Below, piece by piece: positions 22,803-32,490 of a stretch of DNA of 32,512 bases. Under the pieces are notes generated by a model. The model did not search any database and was not told where the DNA came from. It saw only the letters and a program-made list of their open reading frames with translations. This stretch comes from an uncultured cyanobacterium (GTDB taxonomy: Bacteria > Cyanobacteriota > Cyanobacteriia > Cyanobacteriales > Geitlerinemataceae), in NCBI GenBank assembly GCA_937899645.1, contig CALCCD010000053.1:1-32512 (forward strand), read 5' to 3'. The position numbers were made by a program, and so were the translations under genes. Within the stretch, counting starts at the first letter, position 1. Every line of letters starts with the position of its first letter.

Positions 22803-22806
<4 letters not shown>

Positions 22807-23702
22807 ATCCAAACGCGAACCCAGAACCAATGCTGGAACTATCCAAGCCGCTGCCGGAGGGCTGGCGGGTGCGGCGCAAGCCGGGGACGGGGCGGCGCTA
22901 TCGGGAGGTGCTGGCCGAGGGGGTGGAGCTGGTGATGGTGGAGATTCCGGCAGGGGAATTTTGGATGGGGAGCGCGGAGGGCGAGCCGGGGGCGTATGAA
23001 GACGAGCAGCCGAGGCATCGGGTGTCGCTGGAGCGATTTTTCTTGGGGCAGATGGCGGTGACGCAGGCGCAGTGGCAGGCTGTTGCGGGGTATCCGCAAA
23101 TTGAGACCGAGCTAAAGGCTGACCCGTCGCGATTTAAAGGTGGAAATCGACCGGTGGAGCGGGTGAGCTGGGAGGAGGCGCGGGAGTTTTGCCAGAGGCT
23201 GTCGGTACGGACGGGCAAGGACTACCGGCTACCGAGTGAGGCGCAGTGGGAGTATGGCTGTCGGGCGGGGACGGAGACGCCGTTTCATTTTGGGGATTTC
23301 TTGACGGACGAGCTGGCGAATTACAGGGCGACGGAGGTTTTCAATGGGAGCCCGGAGGGAAAGTATCGCAAGGAGACGGTAGAGGTGGGGAGCTTTGCGC
23401 CGAATGCTTGGGGGCTGCACGAGATGCACGGGAACGTCTGGGAGTGGTGTGCGGATGACTGGCATCGCAGTTACGACGGTGCGCCGACGGATGGAAATGC
23501 TTGGCTAAATGAAAATCGTACAAAAACCACCGAAGAGGATGAAACAGAAAATAGTACGAAAAACAAAGTGCTGCGCGGCGGCTCCTGGAACGACTTTCCT
23601 CGGATTTGCCGTTCTGCCATTCGCGGCAACGTTTCGCGCGCGGATCGTGACGGCTACCTCGGTTTTCGGGTGTGTTGCGTCCCCCCGAGGGCTCTTCGAT
23701 AG
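22803..23702 (+). CDS. DGR target 1: FGE-like (SUMF1) variable protein
   Basis: This 299-residue FGE-sulfatase domain protein has a short N-terminal extension before [11 protein letters not shown]. The C-type-lectin-like fold ends in RGGSW and GFRVCC. Residues 257-296 are coded by VR1. The two catalytic cysteines of true formylglycine-generating enzymes sit in the loop just after RGGS(Y/W). Here that loop is the randomised stretch, and the only fixed cysteine before the RSA motif lies at a different place, so it is probably a binding protein rather than an enzyme. The GTG at 22803 overlaps the uvrB stop; ATG 22830 is the alternative. The stop TAG lies beyond the TR-matched part, so the tail RALR is not randomised. 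Confidence 0.93.
23571..23689 (+). repeat. Variable repeat 1 (VR1)
   Basis: These 119 bp align without gaps to the TR at 25380-25498. Thirteen positions differ, all at TR adenines: 8 A-to-G and 5 A-to-T. In the TR, 12 codons carry adenine (11 AAY, one ATT); here they code N, D, F, I, I, G, N, V, D, D, G, Y. The invariant CTCGGTTTTCGGGTG end through CCCCCCGAG is the presumed initiation-of-mutagenic-homing (IMH) side. Confidence 0.97.
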
Positions 23703-23795
23703 TTGTACGATATTTCTTAATTCTTAACTCTCTTCTCTTTTCCCTTTTCCCCATCGCCGAAGGCGATCGATTTTTTTTTGAGATTTTGGGGTCTT
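23690..23795 (+). repeat. Conserved 3' flank of target 1
   Basis: This sequence is strongly similar to the flanks of targets 2 (26559-26657) and 3 (32347-32436), including ATAGTTGTACG, TTCTTAACT and TCTCTTTTCCC. It has no counterpart after the TR beyond CTCTTCG. It also matches target 2 past the T run (GAGATTT...GGGGT). Confidence 0.85.
23753..23779 (+). terminator. Hairpin/T-run after target 1
   Basis: ATCGCC and GGCGAT flank a GAA loop, and a 9-T run follows at 23771-23779. The structure is that of a rho-independent terminator. It also stands where DGRs are known to carry an inverted repeat downstream of the VR (studied in Bordetella phage BPP-1). Confidence 0.75.
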
Positions 23796-23817
23796 GATTT
23801 GAGGTAGGCTCGGGGGT

Positions 23818-24177
23818 ATGAAGACTTCCAATTCAAGCCCAAATTCGGAGCTGCCCGTTATCCAGCAGACCTACGATCTGGTGAAGTGGTACGTGCCGAT
23901 TTTGAACCGGCTGCCCCGGAGCCACAAGTTTGCGCTGGGCGATCGGATGGTGGCGGGGCTCTACGACCTGCTGGAGGGGCTGGTGGCGGCGCGCTACGCG
24001 ACGCAGAAGCTGGCGATCGTCCAGCCGCTAACGGGCCGGGTGAACGTCTTGAAATATCAAACACGGCTGCTGCTGGACTTCCGGCTAGTGGAAGCGCGGC
24101 GCTACGAGTACGCCAGCCGCAAGCTCGATGAGGTGGGGCGGCAGCTCGGCGGCTGGGTCGCCCATCTCCAGCAGTGA
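23818..24177 (+). CDS. avd: Avd-like DGR accessory variability protein
   Basis: This 119-residue, mostly helical protein is typical of the DGR accessory family: a four-helix bundle that forms a basic pentamer and works with the reverse transcriptase in making mutagenised cDNA. The family pattern of a basic LPRSHKFALGDR at about 32-43 is clear, followed by helices rich in L, R and A. It sits between target 1 and the reverse transcriptase, its usual neighbour. Its closest non-DGR relatives are the 23S rRNA intervening-sequence proteins, but context makes Avd the best call. The hairpin/T-run after target 1 separates it from that gene. Confidence 0.9.
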   Translation: MKTSNSSPNSELPVIQQTYDLVKWYVPILNRLPRSHKFALGDRMVAGLYDLLEGLVAARYATQKLAIVQPLTGRVNVLKYQTRLLLDFRLVEARRYEYASRKLDEVGRQLGGWVAHLQQ

Positions 24178-24254: not shown

Positions 24255-25340
24255 ATGAAACGCTACGGCAACCTCTACGGCGAGATTACGAGCTTCGAGA
24301 ACCTGCTGAGCGCGGCCAAACGCGCCCAGCGCGGCAAGCGCTACCGCGAGCCGGTGTTGGCGTTTAATGCCGAGCTCGAAGGTAATCTGTTGCGGCTCCA
24401 GCGAGAGTTGCGCCACCAAATATACGAACCGGGTGCGTATAAACTCTTCGAGATTTACGAGCCGAAGCGACGGGTCATCGCCGCCGCGCCCTACCGCGAT
24501 CGCGTCGTGCATCACGCGCTGTGCAATATCATCGTGCCGATCTTCGATCGCACGTTTATCGCCACCACCTACGCCAACCGCAGCGGCTACGGTTCGCATC
24601 GGGGGTTGCGGCAGTTCGTTCGGTTCGCGCGATCGAGCCGCTACGTGTTGCAGTGCGACATTTGCAAATATTTTCCGAGCATCGATATCGCAATCCTGAA
24701 GGCGCAGATCCGGCGGAAGCTGAAATGCAAGCCGACGCTGTGGCTTATCGATACGATTCTCGATAACCAGCAGGTTCGTAAAGCGCCGCTCGGCAAATCG
24801 GTCGCGCCCGATCGCCCGATCGACTACTTCCCCGGAGACGACCTGCTCGCGCCGCTGACCCGCGCCAGGGGCTTGCCGATCGGCAACCTCACCAGCCAGT
24901 TTTTCGCCAATCTGTACCTGAGCGGCTTCGATCGCTATGTCAAAGAAACACTGAAAGTTTCAAAATACCTGCGCTACGTGGATGACTTCGCGCTGTTTAG
25001 CGACGATCGCGGCTTTTTGACCGAGTGCCGCGTGGCGATCGAGGCTTATCTGGCGACGCTGCGGCTTAGGATTCACCCGATTAAAAGCCAGCTCTTCCAG
25101 ACGAAATACGGCGCGAGTTTCGTCGGCTTTCGGGTCTTGCCCGATCGCATCCGCGTCCGCAACCACAACCTGCGCCTCGGGCGGCGGCGTCTCGCCCAGT
25201 TGCGCTGCGATCGCACCCTCACCCCACGAGAAATCCAGCAGCGCTTGCAAAGCTGGAACGCCCACCTCGCACACGGCGACACCTGGCGGCTGCGGCAGAA
25301 GATTTTCGAGCCGGACTTTCGCGAAGATTTAAAATTTTAA
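24255..25340 (+). CDS. DGR-type reverse transcriptase
   Basis: This 361-residue group II-like reverse transcriptase carries out mutagenic cDNA synthesis from TR RNA, misincorporating opposite adenine. The catalytic YVDD is at 241-244. The DGR-diagnostic IGNLTSQ (209-215) replaces the QGxxxSP of other retroelement RTs. No maturase or endonuclease domain follows, as is usual for DGR RTs. The ATG at 24255 is preferred to a TTG at 24207: GGGGGA precedes it at about 8 nt and the domain begins directly. It lies downstream of avd and upstream of the TR. Confidence 0.97.
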
Positions 25341-25379
25341 GCTCGTTTAGAGTAGAAAGCGGGGCGGGCAATATAGCGG

Positions 25380-25498
25380 CTGCGCGGCGGCTCCTGGAAC
25401 AACAATCCTCGGAATTGCCGTTCTGCCATTCGCAACAACAATTCGCGCGCGAATCGTAACAACAACCTCGGTTTTCGGGTGTGTTGCGTCCCCCCGAG
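25380..25498 (+). repeat. DGR template repeat (TR)
   Basis: This 119-bp template lies 39 bp after the RT stop. It has 24 adenines, grouped in AAC/AAT triplets that read as NNN stretches, so mutation at A gives many residues without stop codons. It is identical to VR1, VR2 and VR3 at all non-adenine positions. After 25498 the TR reads CACTCTTCG where the VRs read GGCTCTTCG, GATTCTTCG and GATTCTCCG. This fits the known IMH*/IMH difference that makes transfer one-way. No protein is coded here. Confidence 0.97.
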
Positions 25499-25683
25499 CA
25501 CTCTTCGCTGTCAGAGTTGGCGGATGGGAATCTGTCGAGCGTATCCGAAGAGTCCAGACCCGTTCCGGTGATGTCTCGCCCGATCGCATTTTCGGTCGGC
25601 GGTGCATCCGAAAATACCCGGCGATCGGCGAGCTTGGTAGGCGCGCCGAAGAGTCTGTCGATCGCCACCCCTTTGCCTCACCC

Positions 25684-26571
25684 ATGCCCCAAGCCGATCG
25701 CCCCTTGCACCGCCTCGTCATCCGAAAACGCAGGCTCGACCTGCCGAGCTATCTCGAAGACCTCGGCAGCGGCGTGACGCTGGCGCTGCGCCCCATCCCC
25801 GCTGGTCGCTTCCGGATGGGCTCTCCAGAGGATGAGCTAGAGAACTACGAAGACGAGCAGCCGCAGCACGAAGTCCGGCTAGAGAAGTTTTTCCTGGGGA
25901 AATATCCCGTGACGCAGGCGCAGTGGCGAACGGTGGCGGGCTATCCGCAAATCGAGGCCGAGCTAGATCCCGACCCGGCGAACTTCAAGGGCGATAACCG
26001 CCCCGTAGAGCAGGTGAACTGGGACGCGGCGCGGGAGTTTTGCCAGCGGCTGTCGGCACGAACGAGGAAGGACTATCGTTTGCCGAGCGAGGCACAGTGG
26101 GAATATGCCTGTCGGGCGGGAACGACGACGCCGTTTCACTTTGGCGAGACGCTGAGCGATGTGCTGGCGAACTATCGCGCGCAGGATTGGGAGTATGAGG
26201 GTAAAACTTATCCTGGCGTCTACGGGCGCGGGGCGTATGGCAAATTTCGAGAAGAAACGACGACAGTCGGCGACTTTCCGGGGAACCGCTGGGGGCTGCA
26301 CGATATGCACGGGAATGTCTGGGAGTGGTGTGCGGACGACTGGCACGAAAGTTACGACGGTGCGCCAACGGATGGCAGCGCTTGGCTGTATGAAAACAGT
26401 ACAGAAATCGCAGAAGAAAGCAGTACGGAAAACAAAGTGCTGCGCGGCGGCTCCTGGGTCGGCAATCCTCGGGTTTGCCGTTCTGCCGTTCGCGACGACT
26501 TTTCGCGCGCGTATCGTTACTTCAACCTCGGTTTTCGGGTGTGTTGCGTCCCCCCGAGGATTCTTCGATAG
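25684..26571 (+). CDS. DGR target 2: FGE-like (SUMF1) variable protein
   Basis: This 295-residue FGE-sulfatase domain protein is a close paralogue of target 1: both carry PAG-R/E-F-x-MGS, an ACQ-type LPSEAQWEY, and the VR-coded RGGSW...GFRVCC end. A proline/basic N-terminal stretch of about 30 residues precedes the domain. VR2 starts at residue 253. True FGE catalytic cysteines are not visible, so ligand binding is more likely than catalysis. It lies downstream of the TR on the same strand and no separate promoter is apparent, so TR RNA and this mRNA may overlap. The start ATG at 25684 has no strong Shine-Dalgarno. Confidence 0.92.
   Translation: MPQADRPLHRLVIRKRRLDLPSYLEDLGSGVTLALRPIPAGRFRMGSPEDELENYEDEQPQHEVRLEKFFLGKYPVTQAQWRTVAGYPQIEAELDPDPANFKGDNRPVEQVNWDAAREFCQRLSARTRKDYRLPSEAQWEYACRAGTTTPFHFGETLSDVLANYRAQDWEYEGKTYPGVYGRGAYGKFREETTTVGDFPGNRWGLHDMHGNVWEWCADDWHESYDGAPTDGSAWLYENSTEIAEESSTENKVLRGGSWVGNPRVCRSAVRDDFSRAYRYFNLGFRVCCVPPRILR
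26440..26558 (+). repeat. Variable repeat 2 (VR2)
   Basis: This repeat is 119 bp and gap-free against the TR. Fifteen positions differ, all at TR adenines: 7 A-to-G, 8 A-to-T. The 12 variable codons read V, G, N, V, V, D, D, F, Y, Y, F, N. Confidence 0.97.
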
Positions 26572-26657
26572 TTGTACGGTATTCTTGATTCTTAACTTTC
26601 TTCTCTTTTCCCTTTGGTCATCGCCGTTAGGCGATCGATTTTTTTTGAGATTTGGGG
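26559..26657 (+). repeat. Conserved 3' flank of target 2
   Basis: This flank matches the flanks of targets 1 and 3, with only a few base changes to target 3 up to the T run. The right-hand end runs into the antitoxin-like frame on the other strand. Confidence 0.85.
26620..26646 (+). terminator. Hairpin/T-run after target 2
   Basis: ATCGCC and GGCGAT flank a GTTA loop, with 8 T at 26639-26646. The structure is identical to that after target 3, and target 1 differs in the loop. Confidence 0.75.
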
Positions 26658-26977
26658 TTGGGTGGCGCATGGCTGCTGTCACGAACCCGATCCCGGCACT
26701 CGCCGTCTTCGAGCTGTTGCAGCGCCCGAGTCGCCAGGTCGTCCAGCCGCCCCGCTGCCACATCCGCCTCAATTTGCCGATCCCAGCGCTCCGCCTCCAG
26801 CGCTGCAAACCACTCGCGAAAGGCCGAAAAGTCCTGGGTTGAAAGTTGCGCGACGGCGCGTTCGACTTCTTGCAGGGGCGTTGGCTGGATTTGTGAACTC
26901 AACTGCGATTCGGTCTTATAGTGTGGCAGAGCGGGGTGATGCCCCACCGATGACGATCGCGCTCCAACTATGACCAC
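26627..26977 (-). pseudogene. Antitoxin-like remnant beside the target 2 flank
   Basis: Residues 35-94 of this 116-residue frame resemble a common addiction-module antitoxin family: LQEVERAVAQL, then FREWFAALEAERWDRQIEADVAAGRLDDLA and a final short GEC. Family members end a few residues after this point. Here the frame runs on into a basic tail (the KSQKKSIA end) encoded by the reverse strand of target 2's conserved flank. No matching toxin gene is next to it. The simplest reading is a gene cut at its 3' end when the target cassette arrived. The start is uncertain: ATG 26977 overlaps the start of the next plus-strand gene, TTG 26902 is an alternative. It might still be expressed. Confidence 0.5.
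26917..26922 (+). promoter_or_regulatory. Possible -10 box of the ternary operon
   Basis: TATAGT lies 47 bp before the ATG of the first gene of the three-gene operon. A weak TGAACT at 17 bp would be the -35. A short GGGG/CCCC hairpin follows in the leader (about 26933-26946). Confidence 0.3.
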
Positions 26978-28349
26978 CTGGGAACACGATAAGCAGCACT
27001 ATCAACGCTTGTGTGAGCTGTATGATGAAGCGCTGGCCGACTGCGGCACGGAGGCCGAGGCTGGCCTGGTTCGCAAGTTGCGGCAGCCATATCAGGATAA
27101 GCTCGAGCAGATCGAGCGCCATCTCTCCGCTGGCGACTCCATTTACGACACCGCGTTCGGCCAGGATGATTCGCTCTTGTCCACCGAGACACGCTGCAAG
27201 GATGGCGGTAGGCAGAAGCTGCGTCAAGCCCTGGCAGACCTTTGTCGGAGCTACAGCAAGCTAAGAGTATATGTTTCAGATATCGACGGCTACAAGCTCA
27301 ACGAAATTGTTGAATCGCGGAATCTCGAGAGCGCTGCATTTGACTTTATCGAACATCTCGAATCTAAAGGCAAGCTCGACCGCTTTTGCGATCTGTTTCT
27401 CGCGACCGAAGCCATCAATGAAAACTCGGAGTTCGTCAAGTTCCGCCGCTGGTGGCAACAGAGGCAGAACCCGCGCGAGCCCTTCATTAGGCCCGACACC
27501 GCCACAGACCCCGACAACCTCGACGACGATCGAGATATTCACGCCCATCTGCTGGTGTTAGCGAAACGGGGCGGCGTCGGCGATCGCTTCCTAACTCGCG
27601 TCACCCTGAAAACTGCGGACAAGACAGAAATTCCCATTCAGCAAATCGACGGCGATCTCGATCTGACGCTGGCTGACTTTCCAGAGCGTCTCGACGACTG
27701 GATCGAATGTTCTATAGAAATTTTGGATGAGATTGTCGAGGACTCGAGCGCCGACGATTGGCAGCTCACCGTCGATCTATTCCTGCCGACGGAATGGCTC
27801 GCACAGCCGCTCGCGCTCTGGTGTGCCGATCGTCTCAAAAAATGGGAGAACATCAATATCGCCATCGTCGTTCGCTGTGCCGATCGTTTCGATCGCCGCC
27901 AGCACTCCAAGTCCGGCAAATACAGCCACCGCGCCTTGTACAAAATGCTTCGAGGACGCCGACGACGCTTTTGCAGTGCCTTATCGGATGTCACAGCCCC
28001 ACTCAAAAAACTGACCTGGGCGCGCCCGAGCGACGGCTTCACTCAAGAGTTTGCTGCCCTGCGCTGCACCTGCGACTGGCTTTCTGGCGCGAGCTGTGAA
28101 GAGGCTTGGACAAATCTGATCCTCTCCGGTATGCCCCTCGCGTTCTGGACGTACGCCCAAACTGCCACCACCGAAGAAATCGACGCTACCTACGATCTCT
28201 TGCTGGAGAAAGATCGCGCCGCCTTTTATCCCGCGATTTGCGAAACCCGCCATCCGAATAATGCAGATGGCCGCCTCCCCGCCCTCGGCGTATTCTACGA
28301 AGGCGATACAGACCGCTACGACCCGCAAGTCCCCAAACGAGCCCGCTAA
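26970..28349 (+). CDS. EAD1-like/VMAP-like protein of a MoxR-vWA ternary system
   Basis: In this 459-residue protein, about 1-75 is a helical N-terminus. About 80-158 resembles the effector-associated domain EAD1 (a death-like helical adaptor): LRQALADL, NLESAAFDFIEHLESKGKL, then FVKFRR. About 188-459 looks like the C-terminal VMAP region of vWA-MoxR-associated proteins, with LFLPTEWLAQPL and a C-terminal LPALGVFYEG end. In ternary systems VMAP proteins are thought to couple the vWA-MoxR sensor to an effector through the EAD; no separate effector is seen here. It is first of three tightly packed genes: the MoxR ATG is 10 nt after its stop. The family call is from pattern and context and needs a profile search. 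Confidence 0.7.
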   Translation: MTTWEHDKQHYQRLCELYDEALADCGTEAEAGLVRKLRQPYQDKLEQIERHLSAGDSIYDTAFGQDDSLLSTETRCKDGGRQKLRQALADLCRSYSKLRVYVSDIDGYKLNEIVESRNLESAAFDFIEHLESKGKLDRFCDLFLATEAINENSEFVKFRRWWQQRQNPREPFIRPDTATDPDNLDDDRDIHAHLLVLAKRGGVGDRFLTRVTLKTADKTEIPIQQIDGDLDLTLADFPERLDDWIECSIEILDEIVEDSSADDWQLTVDLFLPTEWLAQPLALWCADRLKKWENINIAIVVRCADRFDRRQHSKSGKYSHRALYKMLRGRRRRFCSALSDVTAPLKKLTWARPSDGFTQEFAALRCTCDWLSGASCEEAWTNLILSGMPLAFWTYAQTATTEEIDATYDLLLEKDRAAFYPAICETRHPNNADGRLPALGVFYEGDTDRYDPQVPKRAR

Positions 28350-28359
28350 CCCGATCGCC

Positions 28360-29499
28360 ATGACCTCCTGGAAACGCTTCTCCCGCGACGGGGACATCAC
28401 CCCCCTCACCACCGAGAACCTGCCCGCCGCTCCCGCGTGGCGCGAGTTCATGGACGCCGACACCTTCGCGGGCTACCAGCAAGAAGACGAGCGACGCAGG
28501 GCACACATCCAAACCCAAGCCCAACGCGACCCCCGCAGCAACGAACGGGGCGAAAGCTTCCGCATCCGCGAGCCGGAGATCGTCGACGCCGTCAACGCCG
28601 CGCTCTACCTCCGGCGTCCGCTCCTCGTGACCGGCAAACCGGGCTCCGGCAAAACCTCCCTGGCCTACGCGATCGCCCGCAAGCTAGAGCTGGGAACCGT
28701 GCTGCACTGGCCGGTCAACGCCCGATCGACCCTCACCGACGCGCTCTACCGCTACGACGCGATCGCCCGCCTGCAAAACTCCCAGCTCGAAGAAACACAA
28801 AAAAAACGCGCGATCGGCAACTACATCACCCTCGGCGCGGTCGGCACAGCCTTTTTGCCCGCTGCGCTGCCCCGCGTCCTGCTGATCGACGAAATCGACA
28901 AATGCGACATCAACCTCCCCAACGACCTGCTGGAGCTGTTTGAAGAAGGGCGCTACGACATCCCCGAGCTGGTGCGCGCCCAGACCGGCGATCTCGACGC
29001 GATCGAGTCGGAGGGGGTGGACAATTCGGACAATTCAGGCGAATCGGGCGAGTCGGACAACTCTTCCGTGCTGACCACCCGCGTGCGCACCGCCGACCCC
29101 GACCTCTCGGCCACGATTCGCGGCGGGCGCGTGCAGTGCTACCAGTTCCCGATCGTCGTGATGACCAGCAACGGCGAGCGCGACTTTCCGCCCGCATTCC
29201 TGCGGCGCTGCCTGCGGTTGCAGATGCCCGACCCGACCAAAAACGCCGCCGCGCTGGAAGATATCGTCGAAGCGCATCTGAAACGCGGCAAAGACAAAAC
29301 CCGCTGGGCGGACATGAAAGCCGAAATTGACTCGCTAATTCGTGAATTTACGAACAAACGCGACAGTCCGCTGGGCGATGTGGCAACCGACCAGCTCCTG
29401 AATGCGGTGTACCTGCTGACGCGGGAGGTGTCGCCCGACGTTGACGAGCGCGATCGCCTGCGGACGATGCTGCTGCGCGAGCTGAGCCAGGGGGATTAG
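28360..29499 (+). CDS. MoxR-like AAA+ ATPase of the ternary system
   Basis: This 379-residue AAA+ ATPase has Walker A GKPGSGKT (92-99), Walker B LLIDEID (174-180) and a sensor-1-like MTSN followed by the arginine finger region (FLRRCL). This is the MoxR/AAA_5 pattern, whose members act with von Willebrand A proteins as remodelling or switch ATPases. A low-complexity DNSDNSGESGESDNSS insert lies at about 222-240. The ATG at 28360 is chosen because it lies 10 nt after the previous stop; an upstream start would overlap the VMAP-like gene. It is followed 10 nt later by the vWA gene. It probably changes the state of that vWA partner. Confidence 0.88.
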   Translation: MTSWKRFSRDGDITPLTTENLPAAPAWREFMDADTFAGYQQEDERRRAHIQTQAQRDPRSNERGESFRIREPEIVDAVNAALYLRRPLLVTGKPGSGKTSLAYAIARKLELGTVLHWPVNARSTLTDALYRYDAIARLQNSQLEETQKKRAIGNYITLGAVGTAFLPAALPRVLLIDEIDKCDINLPNDLLELFEEGRYDIPELVRAQTGDLDAIESEGVDNSDNSGESGESDNSSVLTTRVRTADPDLSATIRGGRVQCYQFPIVVMTSNGERDFPPAFLRRCLRLQMPDPTKNAAALEDIVEAHLKRGKDKTRWADMKAEIDSLIREFTNKRDSPLGDVATDQLLNAVYLLTREVSPDVDERDRLRTMLLRELSQGD

Positions 29500-29509
29500 G
29501 GAGATTTCC

Positions 29510-32359
29510 GTGGAGGGGCAACCGTCACCACTGAAAGAGCTGACGCGGCTTTTGGGGCGCGATCGCGACGAGTTCGACGGCCTGACCGGGCGCGAAATCG
29601 CCGAAGTGCTGTGGCTGGCGCAGCAGATGGACGAGACCGCCGCCGCACCGCAGCCGGAGCCGGACGCACCGGAGCCCGAGATCGAAACGAGCGTTGATAA
29701 GACGCCCGCGTCAGAGAGCGACGCCAGCCCGATCGTCGAGACCGCCCCGCCGCCAACGACCACCACCGAAGCCGCCGCCGAACTCTACCCCCAGCCACCC
29801 GACGCCCCGACGAACGCCGCCGACGCCTTCGCCGTCCCCGACCCGAGCGAGATTTCCGATCCGCTGGCGCTGGCGCGGGCGCTGCGCCCCCTGGCGCGAC
29901 GCTTGCCGATCGGCAGACCCAACCTGCTCGACGAAGCCGCGACGGCCGATCGCGTCGCGGAAACCCGCACCCTCGATCCGGTGTTGCGCCCGGAGACCGA
30001 GCGCTGGTTCGATGTGGCGCTGGTGGTGGACAGCAGCACGTCGATGCAGCTTTGGGATCGCTTCGTGCGAGATCTGCGACGCTTGCTGTCGCGCTATGGC
30101 GAATTTCGCGACGTGCGCTGCTGGCGGCTGCGGGCGGGGTTGCTGGAGGCGTGGAACACTCGCCACCACCGTCCGAGCGCGCTACTGGTGGGCGATCGCC
30201 GTCGGATCGTGGTGGTGGTAAGCGATTGTGTCGATCGAGCTTGGTATTCCGAAAGCTCCGAAGCCCAGCGCGACAGTCCGAACCGCGCGGCGCTGGCGCT
30301 CTGGGCGGCGAAGCTGCCGACGGCGGTGTTTCAGGTGTTTCCCGAGCGGCTGTGGGAGAAGACCGCGATCGCGCAGATGCTCCCAGCGGCGCTGCGGGGT
30401 CGGCGGTTCGGTCAGCCCAGCGCCAGTTTGCGACCGCGGCTGCTGTCGCCGTTCGATCGGCGCGACGTGCGCGAGGAGCTGGCAGCGCACCCCGAGCGGC
30501 GCGGCCTGTTTTTGCCGTTGCCGATCGTCAATGTCGAGGCGCGGAGTTTGGCGGCCTGGGCGCAGGTGGTGGCGGGGACGCGGCAGCAGGTGGAGGCGAG
30601 CGGCGGGCTGTGGCGATCGGTGGTGGGGCTGTCGGAAAATTCGGAAAATGCTGCGCTGGGCGAGTTTGACGATTTGGGCGATGAGTTTGACGAACTCGAA
30701 GAAGAGCCGCTGACGCCGGTGGAGGTGTTTTTGCTGACGGCGTCGCCGATCGCGAAGCGGCTGGCGGGGCTGCTGGCGTTGGCTCCGGTGGTGACGCTGC
30801 CGATCGTTCGGTTGATTCGGGGGGCGATGCTCGAGGAGGCGCGGACGGAACACGTGGCGGAGGTGCTGACGAGCGGGCTGCTGGTGCGGCAGGCTCGGCG
30901 GGTTCCGGAGGAGGTGGAGAGAGAGAAGCGCGATCGAGAGATTTACGAGTTCGTGGATGCAGACGATGCAAAGCAGGGGGCAACGCGGGAAAGGCTCGGC
31001 AAGCTGTACGACGATGTTAACCGGCGGCTGGTGATTGACAAGGTGTCGATCTATATCGCGAAGCGGCTGGGGCTGAGCGCAGAGCAGTTTTTGGCGCGGT
31101 TAGGTGGCGTAGCGAAGGGCTCGGCGGCGGAAAATAGCGAGTTTCTAGCGGCGTTCGCGCGGGTGATGGCGCGGGATTTGGTGCGGTTGGGCGGGCGGTA
31201 TGCGGCGATCGCGACGCGGCTCGCTCCGGCGGCGGTGGCCGAGCTGGAAGCTGAGGAAGCGCCGCCTGCTGGGGAAGGAGTAGAGGGAGGAACGGGCGAG
31301 GGGATGCAAGGTTGGCCGCTGGAGGCGTTTGAGTTTGAGTATCTGGAGCTGGAGGCGGCGGCGGCGGATGAAGTGGGCGATGAGGCGGGCGAGCTGTTTC
31401 CGCTGGTGTCCGACCCGAGCGAGGTGGCGGAGATCGAGACGGTGTTGGAGCGGTTTGAGTTTGAGACGGCGACGATCGAGCGAGTGACGAGTTTCCGGGG
31501 TTTGTTGCAAGCACGTATCACATTGTCTGGCCTCAAACGACAACCGGAATGGGAGATTCGCAAGTGCCGGACGGAAGCCTGGGGCTATACCGAACGGCTC
31601 GACGACGAAGTGGCGATCGAGTTGGTCGCGATCCCCGAGGGGACTTTTACGATCGGCGCACCGGACACCGAGCCGGACAGCTACGACAACGAACGCCCGC
31701 AGGTGGAGGTGACGCTGGAGCCGTTCTATATGGCGCGGACGCCCGTCACCCAAGCCCAGTGGCGCATCGTGGCGGGGTATCCGCAGATCGAGATCGAACT
31801 CGACCCCGACCCGTCAAACTTCAAGGGCGACAACCGCCCGGTGGAACAGGTGAGCTGGGAGGCGGCGGTGGAGTTTTGTCAGCGCTTGTCTGCCGCCACC
31901 GGCCAAGATTACCGACTGCCGAGCGAAGCTCAGTGGGAGTACGCCTGCCGCGCGGGAACGACGACGCCATTTTGTTTTGGCGAAACGCTGAGTACCGACC
32001 TGGCGAATTACGATGGCGATTTCACGTATAACGGCGGCCCAAAGGGGGAAGATCGCCGCGAGACCACGGAGGTTGCCAGCCTCCCAGGTAATGCCTGGGG
32101 GCTGCATGATGTACATGGCAACGTTTGGGAATGGTGTGCGGATGACGGTGGTGACTATGGCGACCTGCCTCTGGATGGTTTGCCTTGGCAAACTGAAGAG
32201 AATGAAAATCGTACAGAAAGTCGGCGGCTGCGCGGCGGCTCCTGGCTCAACCTTCCTCGGAATTGCCGTTCTGCCTTTCGCTACCTCTTTTCGCGCGCGT
32301 ATCGTTTCTACTCCCTCGGTTTTCGGGTGTGTTGCGTCCCCCCGAGGATTCTCCGATAG
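29510..32359 (+). CDS. DGR target 3: vWA/SAV_2336-like protein with FGE-like tail
   Basis: In this 949-residue fusion, residues 1-42 form a small helical segment (LLGRD...EIAEVLWLAQQ). A proline/acidic linker of about 50 residues follows. About 110-370 is a vWA domain with the MIDAS motif D174-x-S176-x-S178 (DSSTS). About 430-640 is a helical region as in SAV_2336-type proteins (LTASPIAKRLAGLLALAP). About 690-949 is an FGE-like domain ending in VR3 (from residue 907). The start is GTG 29510 with GGGAG upstream, 10 nt after moxR. vWA domains bind metal-dependent partners, here likely the MoxR ATPase; the FGE-like tail would be the ligand sensor. FGE catalytic cysteines are absent. It is the only target fused to a signalling module. 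Confidence 0.93.
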   Translation: MEGQPSPLKELTRLLGRDRDEFDGLTGREIAEVLWLAQQMDETAAAPQPEPDAPEPEIETSVDKTPASESDASPIVETAPPPTTTTEAAAELYPQPPDAPTNAADAFAVPDPSEISDPLALARALRPLARRLPIGRPNLLDEAATADRVAETRTLDPVLRPETERWFDVALVVDSSTSMQLWDRFVRDLRRLLSRYGEFRDVRCWRLRAGLLEAWNTRHHRPSALLVGDRRRIVVVVSDCVDRAWYSESSEAQRDSPNRAALALWAAKLPTAVFQVFPERLWEKTAIAQMLPAALRGRRFGQPSASLRPRLLSPFDRRDVREELAAHPERRGLFLPLPIVNVEARSLAAWAQVVAGTRQQVEASGGLWRSVVGLSENSENAALGEFDDLGDEFDELEEEPLTPVEVFLLTASPIAKRLAGLLALAPVVTLPIVRLIRGAMLEEARTEHVAEVLTSGLLVRQARRVPEEVEREKRDREIYEFVDADDAKQGATRERLGKLYDDVNRRLVIDKVSIYIAKRLGLSAEQFLARLGGVAKGSAAENSEFLAAFARVMARDLVRLGGRYAAIATRLAPAAVAELEAEEAPPAGEGVEGGTGEGMQGWPLEAFEFEYLELEAAAADEVGDEAGELFPLVSDPSEVAEIETVLERFEFETATIERVTSFRGLLQARITLSGLKRQPEWEIRKCRTEAWGYTERLDDEVAIELVAIPEGTFTIGAPDTEPDSYDNERPQVEVTLEPFYMARTPVTQAQWRIVAGYPQIEIELDPDPSNFKGDNRPVEQVSWEAAVEFCQRLSAATGQDYRLPSEAQWEYACRAGTTTPFCFGETLSTDLANYDGDFTYNGGPKGEDRRETTEVASLPGNAWGLHDVHGNVWEWCADDGGDYGDLPLDGLPWQTEENENRTESRRLRGGSWLNLPRNCRSAFRYLFSRAYRFYSLGFRVCCVPPRILR
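32228..32346 (+). repeat. Variable repeat 3 (VR3)
   Basis: This repeat is 119 bp and gap-free against the TR. Sixteen positions differ, all at TR adenines: 12 A-to-T and 4 A-to-C, with no A-to-G. The 12 variable codons read L, N, L, N, F, Y, L, F, Y, F, Y, S, clearly more aromatic and aliphatic than VR1. Confidence 0.97.
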
Positions 32360-32436
32360 TTGTACGATATTCTTTATTCTTAACTCTCTTCTCTTTTCCC
32401 TTTGGTCATCGCCGTTAGGCGATCGATTTTTTTTGA
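32347..32436 (+). repeat. Conserved 3' flank of target 3
   Basis: This flank nearly matches that of target 2 from ATAGTTGTACG through the hairpin and T run. It diverges right after the T run (GAAAAATAG), unlike targets 1 and 2, which continue GAGATTT. Confidence 0.85.
32408..32434 (+). terminator. Hairpin/T-run after target 3
   Basis: ATCGCC and GGCGAT flank a GTTA loop and are followed by 8 T at 32427-32434. It is likely to end the ternary operon. Confidence 0.75.
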
Positions 32437-32490
32437 AAAATAGCCCTTAGAGTACTCCACGGAAATAAATGTCCAGCATTCAGAATTCGA

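Follow-up and report, generated by a model that had tools for sequence, protein, structure and literature searches.

Cyanobacterial diversity-generating retroelements (DGRs) and their link with MoxR/vWA/VMAP genes have already been described (PMC7517822, PMC10907252 and PMC7159879, available text). A minimum of 55% RT identity is given for the cyanobacterial clade-5 DGRs in the accessible part of PMC7517822 and, according to that of PMC7159879, about 80% of the cyanobacterial and gammaproteobacterial VMAP-ternary systems are linked to a DGR. In the BPP-1 system the spacer 3' of the template repeat (TR) is reported, in the available portion of PMC12875486, to fold and to recruit RT-Avd. In Nodularia spumigena CCY9414, according to the available text of PMC3610870, a strong start site lies 199 nt after a DGR reverse transcriptase (RT), and a possible DGR RNA occurs in 70 near-identical copies.

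The window, that is the whole 32,512-nt stretch of DNA analyzed here, is a complete contig (C53) of a 4.55-Mb draft genome in 134 contigs. Its gene content and sequence indicate a chromosomal DGR of the cyanobacterial clade-5 type, with a TR, VRs differing from it at adenines only, Avd, RT and FGE-fold targets, a reading to which we give a probability of about 0.96. The order is VP1 with VR1, Avd, RT, TR, structured RNA, VP2 with VR2, VMAP-like protein, MoxR-like ATPase and VP3 with VR3:

22803..23702, + strand: target gene 1 (VP1), 299 aa, FGE-sulfatase/C-type-lectin fold (PF03781, 1.7e-46)
23571..23689, + strand: VR1, 13 differences from the TR, all at A
23818..24177, + strand: Avd accessory protein, 119 aa (NF033474, 2.1e-35; bAvd PF22296)
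24255..25340, + strand: DGR reverse transcriptase, 361 aa from ATG 24255 (RVT_1; alignment to 8ub7)
25380..25498, + strand: template repeat (TR), 24 adenines
25497..25669, + strand: conserved structured RNA directly 3' of the TR (alignment and covariation, 95 sequences)
25684..26571, + strand: target gene 2 (VP2), 295 aa, FGE fold (PF03781, 6.2e-49)
26440..26558, + strand: VR2, 15 differences from the TR, all at A
26970..28349, + strand: VMAP-like protein, 459 aa, with VMAP-C and a weak EAD1 (PF20028, 3.8e-10)
28360..29499, + strand: MoxR-like AAA ATPase (AAA_5, 5.2e-09)
29510..32359, + strand: target gene 3 (VP3), 949 aa, with an SAV_2336-type N-terminal part (NF041121, 1.9e-98) and a C-terminal FGE domain (PF03781, 1.8e-45)
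32228..32346, + strand: VR3, 16 differences from the TR, all at A

Between the RT stop and the TR lie 39 nt, and 13 nt remain between each VR and the end of its gene, stop counted. The RT open frame as listed begins at TTG 24207. The best solved relative of the RT is 8ub7 (E 3.9e-51), which we take to be the BPP-1 RT, and comparison with BPP-1 brt by tblastn gave 35.7% identity (E 6e-44). The protein carries IGNLTSQ and YVDD, motifs that mark DGR RTs. Avd scored above the NCBIfam cut-off for NF033474 and had no match among solved structures at E 0.01; Avd and this RT each have a single match in the genome. PADLOC returned only RT families for the RT and only ATPase families for the MoxR-like protein. 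The RT is 58-74% identical to its listed relatives (the best of the matches), which are mostly cyanobacterial, and these values lie above the 55% given for clade 5, the comparison being one of identity and not a tree.

Seven matches to the FGE domain were found in the genome. The predicted structure of VP2 (pLDDT 84.2) matched the folds of PvdO (Z 31.6) and of the Treponema variable protein 2y3c, TvpA (Z 30.1), with lower matches to TaqVP (Z 14.1) and Mtd (Z 13.4). In the VMAP-like protein VMAP-C was detected at 40.5 bits (PF20028, cut-off 27) and EAD1 at 22.4 bits, under the cut-off of 24.2 (PF19955). The ATPase was recognized by AAA_5 at 36.7 bits (cut-off 22), the MoxR label being taken from gene context. 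The first 700 residues of VP3 showed no Pfam domain at E 1; the NF041121 match and a DxSxS motif (DSSTS) are the two features by which its N-terminal part is called vWA-like. Under the published proposals, the MoxR/vWA/VMAP genes would form a conflict system with VP3 as its variable sensor, VP1 and VP2 being CLec-only companions. The locus fits as a further example of the already known DGRs that diversify putative conflict-system or immune sensors.

The best 80 of 311 RT-related loci were kept for comparison. Among these AVD was found in 79 and an FGE target in 74, and among the 49 of them with full flanks MoxR was found in 28, the VP3 N-terminal part in 19 and, by direct comparison, VMAP similarity in 1. 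In 106 loci, the window counted and some genomes present twice, the RT was closely followed by a TR that had an A-only partner. Typically the TR of this family lies 40-170 nt 3' of the RT and forms an A-only run with a VR near avd, and a second, downstream VR is common; the window has three in-locus VRs, as have L025 and L091. At some family loci the scanner for A-only runs found none. Since these scans select A-only runs, they show how common the anatomy is and cannot measure how often the rule fails.

The TR comprises 119 nt (A24 C39 G30 T26), its boundary having been set by eye in the earlier note, which had counted 13, 15 and 16 differences between it and VR1, VR2 and VR3 in a gap-free comparison and had placed all of them at TR adenines. 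Tabulation of 25380-25498 against 23571-23689, 26440-26558 and 32228-32346 reproduced these figures exactly: 44 of 44 differences lie at TR adenines, none of the 95 non-adenine positions is altered in any copy, and the 119 bp hold no non-A mismatch. When C, G or T was taken as the mutable base in the same test, 13, 15 and 16 exceptions remained for the three VRs. Non-A mismatches start directly 3' of the 119-bp boundary, with patchy similarity (CTCTTCG) just past it. Twenty-two of the 24 TR adenines vary in at least one VR; those that never vary are at TR positions 74 and 118, the latter in the final GAG. Upstream of that GAG all 12 A-containing codons vary (7 AAC, 4 AAT and 1 ATT), in agreement with the earlier description of twelve variable codons, mostly AAY, and stop codons are avoided as it stated, no A-to-N outcome of these codons being a stop. 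About 3e13 protein variants are possible from them. The replacements over the three VRs were T (25), G (15) and C (4). The substitution spectrum may differ between VRs (4 of 2000 permutations were as high; p 0.00-0.02 with one site per codon), and by codon position the difference gave p 0.013 at the first and 0.12 at the second.

With random placement over 119 sites, the probability that all differences fall on the 24 adenines is 2.8e-37, so drift alone is insufficient, as had been argued before. Adenine-specific mutagenic retrohoming, the reading first proposed, is also supported by the sequence, in which the A-only pattern is found together with Avd, RT, TR and CLec/FGE-fold targets; to our knowledge it is the sole known mechanism giving A-to-N changes at many adenines and none elsewhere. 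With zero exceptions in 285 non-adenine comparisons, the three-target locus is a clean example of a DGR. BPP-1, taken as a positive control, showed 18 of 22 TR/VR differences at A and 4 of 22 at non-A positions, indicating that DGRs need not lack the latter.

It is extremely improbable that the three VRs are ordinary duplicates that diverged by drift or selection, without retrohoming. In its favour, the targets are paralogous and their 3' flanks (23703-23810, 26572-26679 and 32360-32467) are 84-94% identical over the first 50 nt past the stops, but a chance of about 3e-37, the lack of any non-A change, synonymous or otherwise, in 119 bp x 3 and the recurrence of the A-only pattern at many other loci argue strongly against it. 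The VRs are 86-87% identical to one another, compared with 54-63% for the upstream coding DNA of the three targets. An enzyme editing adenosines in DNA or RNA would agree with every change being at A, but is just as implausible a source of the VR mutations: deamination yields A-to-G, whereas 25 changes here are A-to-T and 4 are A-to-C, and the unmutated TR adjoins an RT. Deamination, duplication and drift were therefore rejected as the source of the A-only VR differences.

A fifth TR-like copy is present on another contig (C65:8605-8723), at the 3' terminus of a gene (L015:7330-8733) that encodes an EAD1-FGE protein of 467 aa. Of its 28 differences from the TR, 12 are at A and the remaining 16 fall on other bases, so that it breaks the A-only rule; the gene looks like a target that is no longer overwritten. 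This degenerate copy would suit a fossil DGR, in which past diversification has stopped and the three VRs are frozen. For the window we regard this as unlikely, since the RT and Avd reading frames are intact and none of the 95 non-A positions has drifted in three copies, against a difference of 37-46% in the neighbouring coding DNA.

The final 33 bp of the TR contain one A and are common to all VRs, a candidate IMH site. A hairpin followed by a T-run starts 62 nt after VR2 and VR3, an exact pattern unique to these in the genome, and a variant of it follows VR1. The signal for a family-wide DNA cruciform 3' of VRs was weak, a hairpin being found in 18 of 137 VR flanks compared with 6 upstream controls. 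Just 5' of the TR, at about 25355-25372, lies a G-rich motif (GGGGCGGGCAA-like) conserved in 8 aligned sequences. In BPP-1 cDNA synthesis is ended by the 5' flank, of which this motif may be the counterpart.

Immediately after the TR, some 170 nt form part of an RNA that shows strong covariation among 95 distinct sequences. In the window the RNA contains helices H1 (25500-25506/25547-25553), H2 (25510-25511/25543-25544 and 25517-25525/25530-25538), H3 (25568-25574/25604-25609) and H4 (25622-25634/25652-25664, inner 25640-25642/25645-25647). Of the 40 pairs in the alignment, 33 show double changes; paired cells amount to 96.1%, compared with 82.5% in shuffles, and double-change cells to 606, compared with 153, the margin being large even though the structure was derived from the tested alignment itself and kinship among sequences inflates the counts. 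None of 500 shuffles reached the observed level of pairing or of double changes, and sliding the partner by one column lowered pairing to 43-46%. The alignment sets include near-duplicates from overlapping locus sets, only identical segments having been removed. The folding energy of the window RNA by itself does not stand out from that of its shuffles (z -0.89; 35 of 200 equally good), covariation being the basis for the structure, and an Rfam search of the region gave no match up to E 5.

Of the 106 TR-bearing loci, 99 have an anchor motif of this RNA no more than 330 nt past the end of the TR run, 82 of these at 44-59 nt. A covariance model built from 32 sequences, the window's among them, scored the window RNA at 121.9 bits and recovered 6 of the 7 TR-bearing loci that lack the motif. 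These figures bear on whether the RNA is instead a leader or regulator of target gene 2, outside the retrohoming RNA, as its end 15 nt before the VP2 start might suggest. Its position 3' of the TR in nearly all of these loci, the many TR-RNA loci that list an upstream VR only and its presence 3' of TRs in cassettes without a nearby RT make such a role improbable.

The cyanobacterial RNA occupies the position of the BPP-1 spacer and probably functions like it. Against BPP-1 the model scored at most 5.3 bits (E 0.44), away from the TR flank, and 3.5 bits (E 1.3) just 3' of the TR, neither being significant, so a shared position is stated and homology is not claimed. Among 80 IMG/VR loci with RT relatives, one matched the model at E < 0.01 (E 2e-4). 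By analogy with BPP-1, RT-Avd would bind the TR-RNA together with the folded segment on its 3' side and make from it a cDNA carrying errors opposite template adenines; this cDNA would then take the place of the VR at the 3' end of each of the three targets, rewriting up to 12 codons. We found no earlier description of a covarying cyanobacterial DGR RNA, nor of the non-autonomous DGR cassettes considered below, in a literature search whose coverage of subscription papers was thin.

The RNA model had matches in 114 of 388 genomes of the order at E 0.001, and the RT in 71 of 388 at E 1e-100, the 388 genomes behind the two counts being likely one and the same set. A census with stricter filters, in which the weakest matches were omitted and listed copies of at least 100 bits were counted, gave 130 copies in 92 of the 388 genomes. 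An RT match within 3 kb accompanied 76 of the 130 listed copies, some of the matches counted as RT being incomplete or having stops, and an RT fragment accompanied 8; the other 46 had neither an E 1e-100 match nor a fragment from further searches within 3 kb. The RT-linked copies were mostly downstream of the RT on the same strand (70 of 76), with 5 upstream and 1 on the opposite strand. In G662, G563, G588, G278 and G606 the RT is preceded by an RNA copy, an arrangement like the gene order of BPP-1; G606 has copies on both sides.

Nineteen of the 46 RT-less copies are in genomes with an RT elsewhere, G317 being a genome with both. Twenty-four genomes without an RT match at E 1e-100, part of those with RT-less copies, were rechecked at E 1e-8: nothing matched in 9, 7 carried RT fragments of 49-66% identity and the remaining 8 gave only distant stretches of 26-33%; an RT may also be hidden by draft assembly or by contig ends. 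For 17 of the 46 RT-less copies, a TR immediately preceding the RNA could be matched to a VR in the same stretch of about 10 kb, in A-only runs of 64-129 bp with 7-19 differences; when another base (C, G or T) was treated as mutable, these loci gave no run. Pieces of Avd or RT are also present at L320 and L332, and setting these two aside leaves 15 clean cassettes with TR, RNA and a nearby A-only VR, RT and Avd being undetected in the examined stretch (L300, L301, L303, L305, L306, L310, L312, L318, L319, L321, L322, L324, L330, L334 and L346).

The other 29 RT-less copies comprise 15 with a target match running into the RNA, 6 with an upstream target and no A-only run and 8 without a target, the first class including, besides genuine VP-RNA fusions, loci matched through the TR only (L313, L325 and L329). 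At L304, L314, L317, L323, L326, L335, L337, L343, L344 and L345 the FGE target end runs into the RNA and no separate TR was seen. Were the mRNA of such VP-RNA fusions to act as template for itself, adenines should be depleted over time.

Three genomes share an identical TR and have VRs that differ mutually at 16-21 sites, all of them TR adenines. In a nearest-copy test of 45 RT-less copies (one being too near a contig end), with a sample of family loci as the RT-linked side, the nearest RNA was another RT-less copy for 30 and the nearest TR likewise for 24. One sequence group spans several genera of one family. To judge by their sequences, the 17 RT-less TR/VR cassettes appear as if served in trans. 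The main rival is decay after RT loss, which fits the RT remnants at L299 and L302 and genomes such as G147, with zero RT match at E 1e-8. In the view that we favour, the RT recognizes the TR with its folded RNA as a unit, and units of target, TR and RNA can exist separately from the RT. The fuller proposal, that the TR and its covarying 3' RNA form a portable module recognized in trans by RT-Avd and that the RT-less cassettes are non-autonomous DGRs using an RT encoded elsewhere or since lost, is tentative, and we place it slightly below even odds. The covariance model offers a way to find DGR templates without an RT gene, which would escape RT-based surveys, and opens to testing whether, within a single bacterium, DGR machinery acts in trans on numerous scattered templates and targets.

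The two adenines of AAY codons mutate in a coupled manner in-frame (OR 23, p 2e-35) in the 109 motif-framed pairs kept from 139 natural TR/VR pairs, 30 having been rejected. Early out-of-frame controls looked significant (p 4e-5 in one, 0.003 in a second and about 0.02 or less for three of four subsets in a third) because wrong reading frames inflated them; with checked frames the out-of-frame coupling was not significant (OR 2.5, p 0.16), nor was a simple purine/pyrimidine test in 53 viral TR/VR pairs. Residues at the 1189 AAY codons of the 109 pairs were Asn (20.4%), Tyr (18.5%), Asp (17.7%), Ser (9.2%), Leu (8.7%) and Phe (7.6%), with Cys, Arg and Pro at no more than 0.5% each. Since amino-acid selection suffices for the in-frame pattern and the out-of-frame control failed, no claim is made for coupled misincorporation as a property of the enzyme.

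Compared with described systems, the window locus resembles the cyanobacterial clade-5 DGRs (Vallota-Eastman 2020, PMC7517822; Dore 2024, PMC10907252) in its FGE/CLec targets, several per locus, and in its association with MoxR/vWA/VMAP genes, and has no feature outside those given for clade-5 DGRs in the available text of these two papers. With BPP-1 it shares Avd, RT, TR and a CLec-fold gene whose 3' end carries a VR, TR/VR differences mostly at adenine (18 of 22 in BPP-1) and a structured spacer RNA 3' of the TR (PMC12875486, available part). The two differ in that the BPP-1 TR lies between avd and the RT, whereas that of the window follows the RT gene. The VMAP ternary conflict systems (Kaur 2020, PMC7159879, available text) are alike in VMAP-C, the MoxR ATPase, a vWA-like-FGE fusion and DGR linkage, with the differences that vWA is recognized in the window only by NF041121 and the motif and that the EAD1 match is under its cut-off. 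The RT-less cassettes are nearest to the trans-diversified or incomplete DGR loci of Thiohalocapsa (Dore 2024, PMC10907252), where targets also occur without a complete local DGR and trans action has been proposed. Unlike those loci, as far as they are presented in the available part of that paper, the cassettes found here retain their own TR and 3' RNA, and several belong to groups spanning genera.
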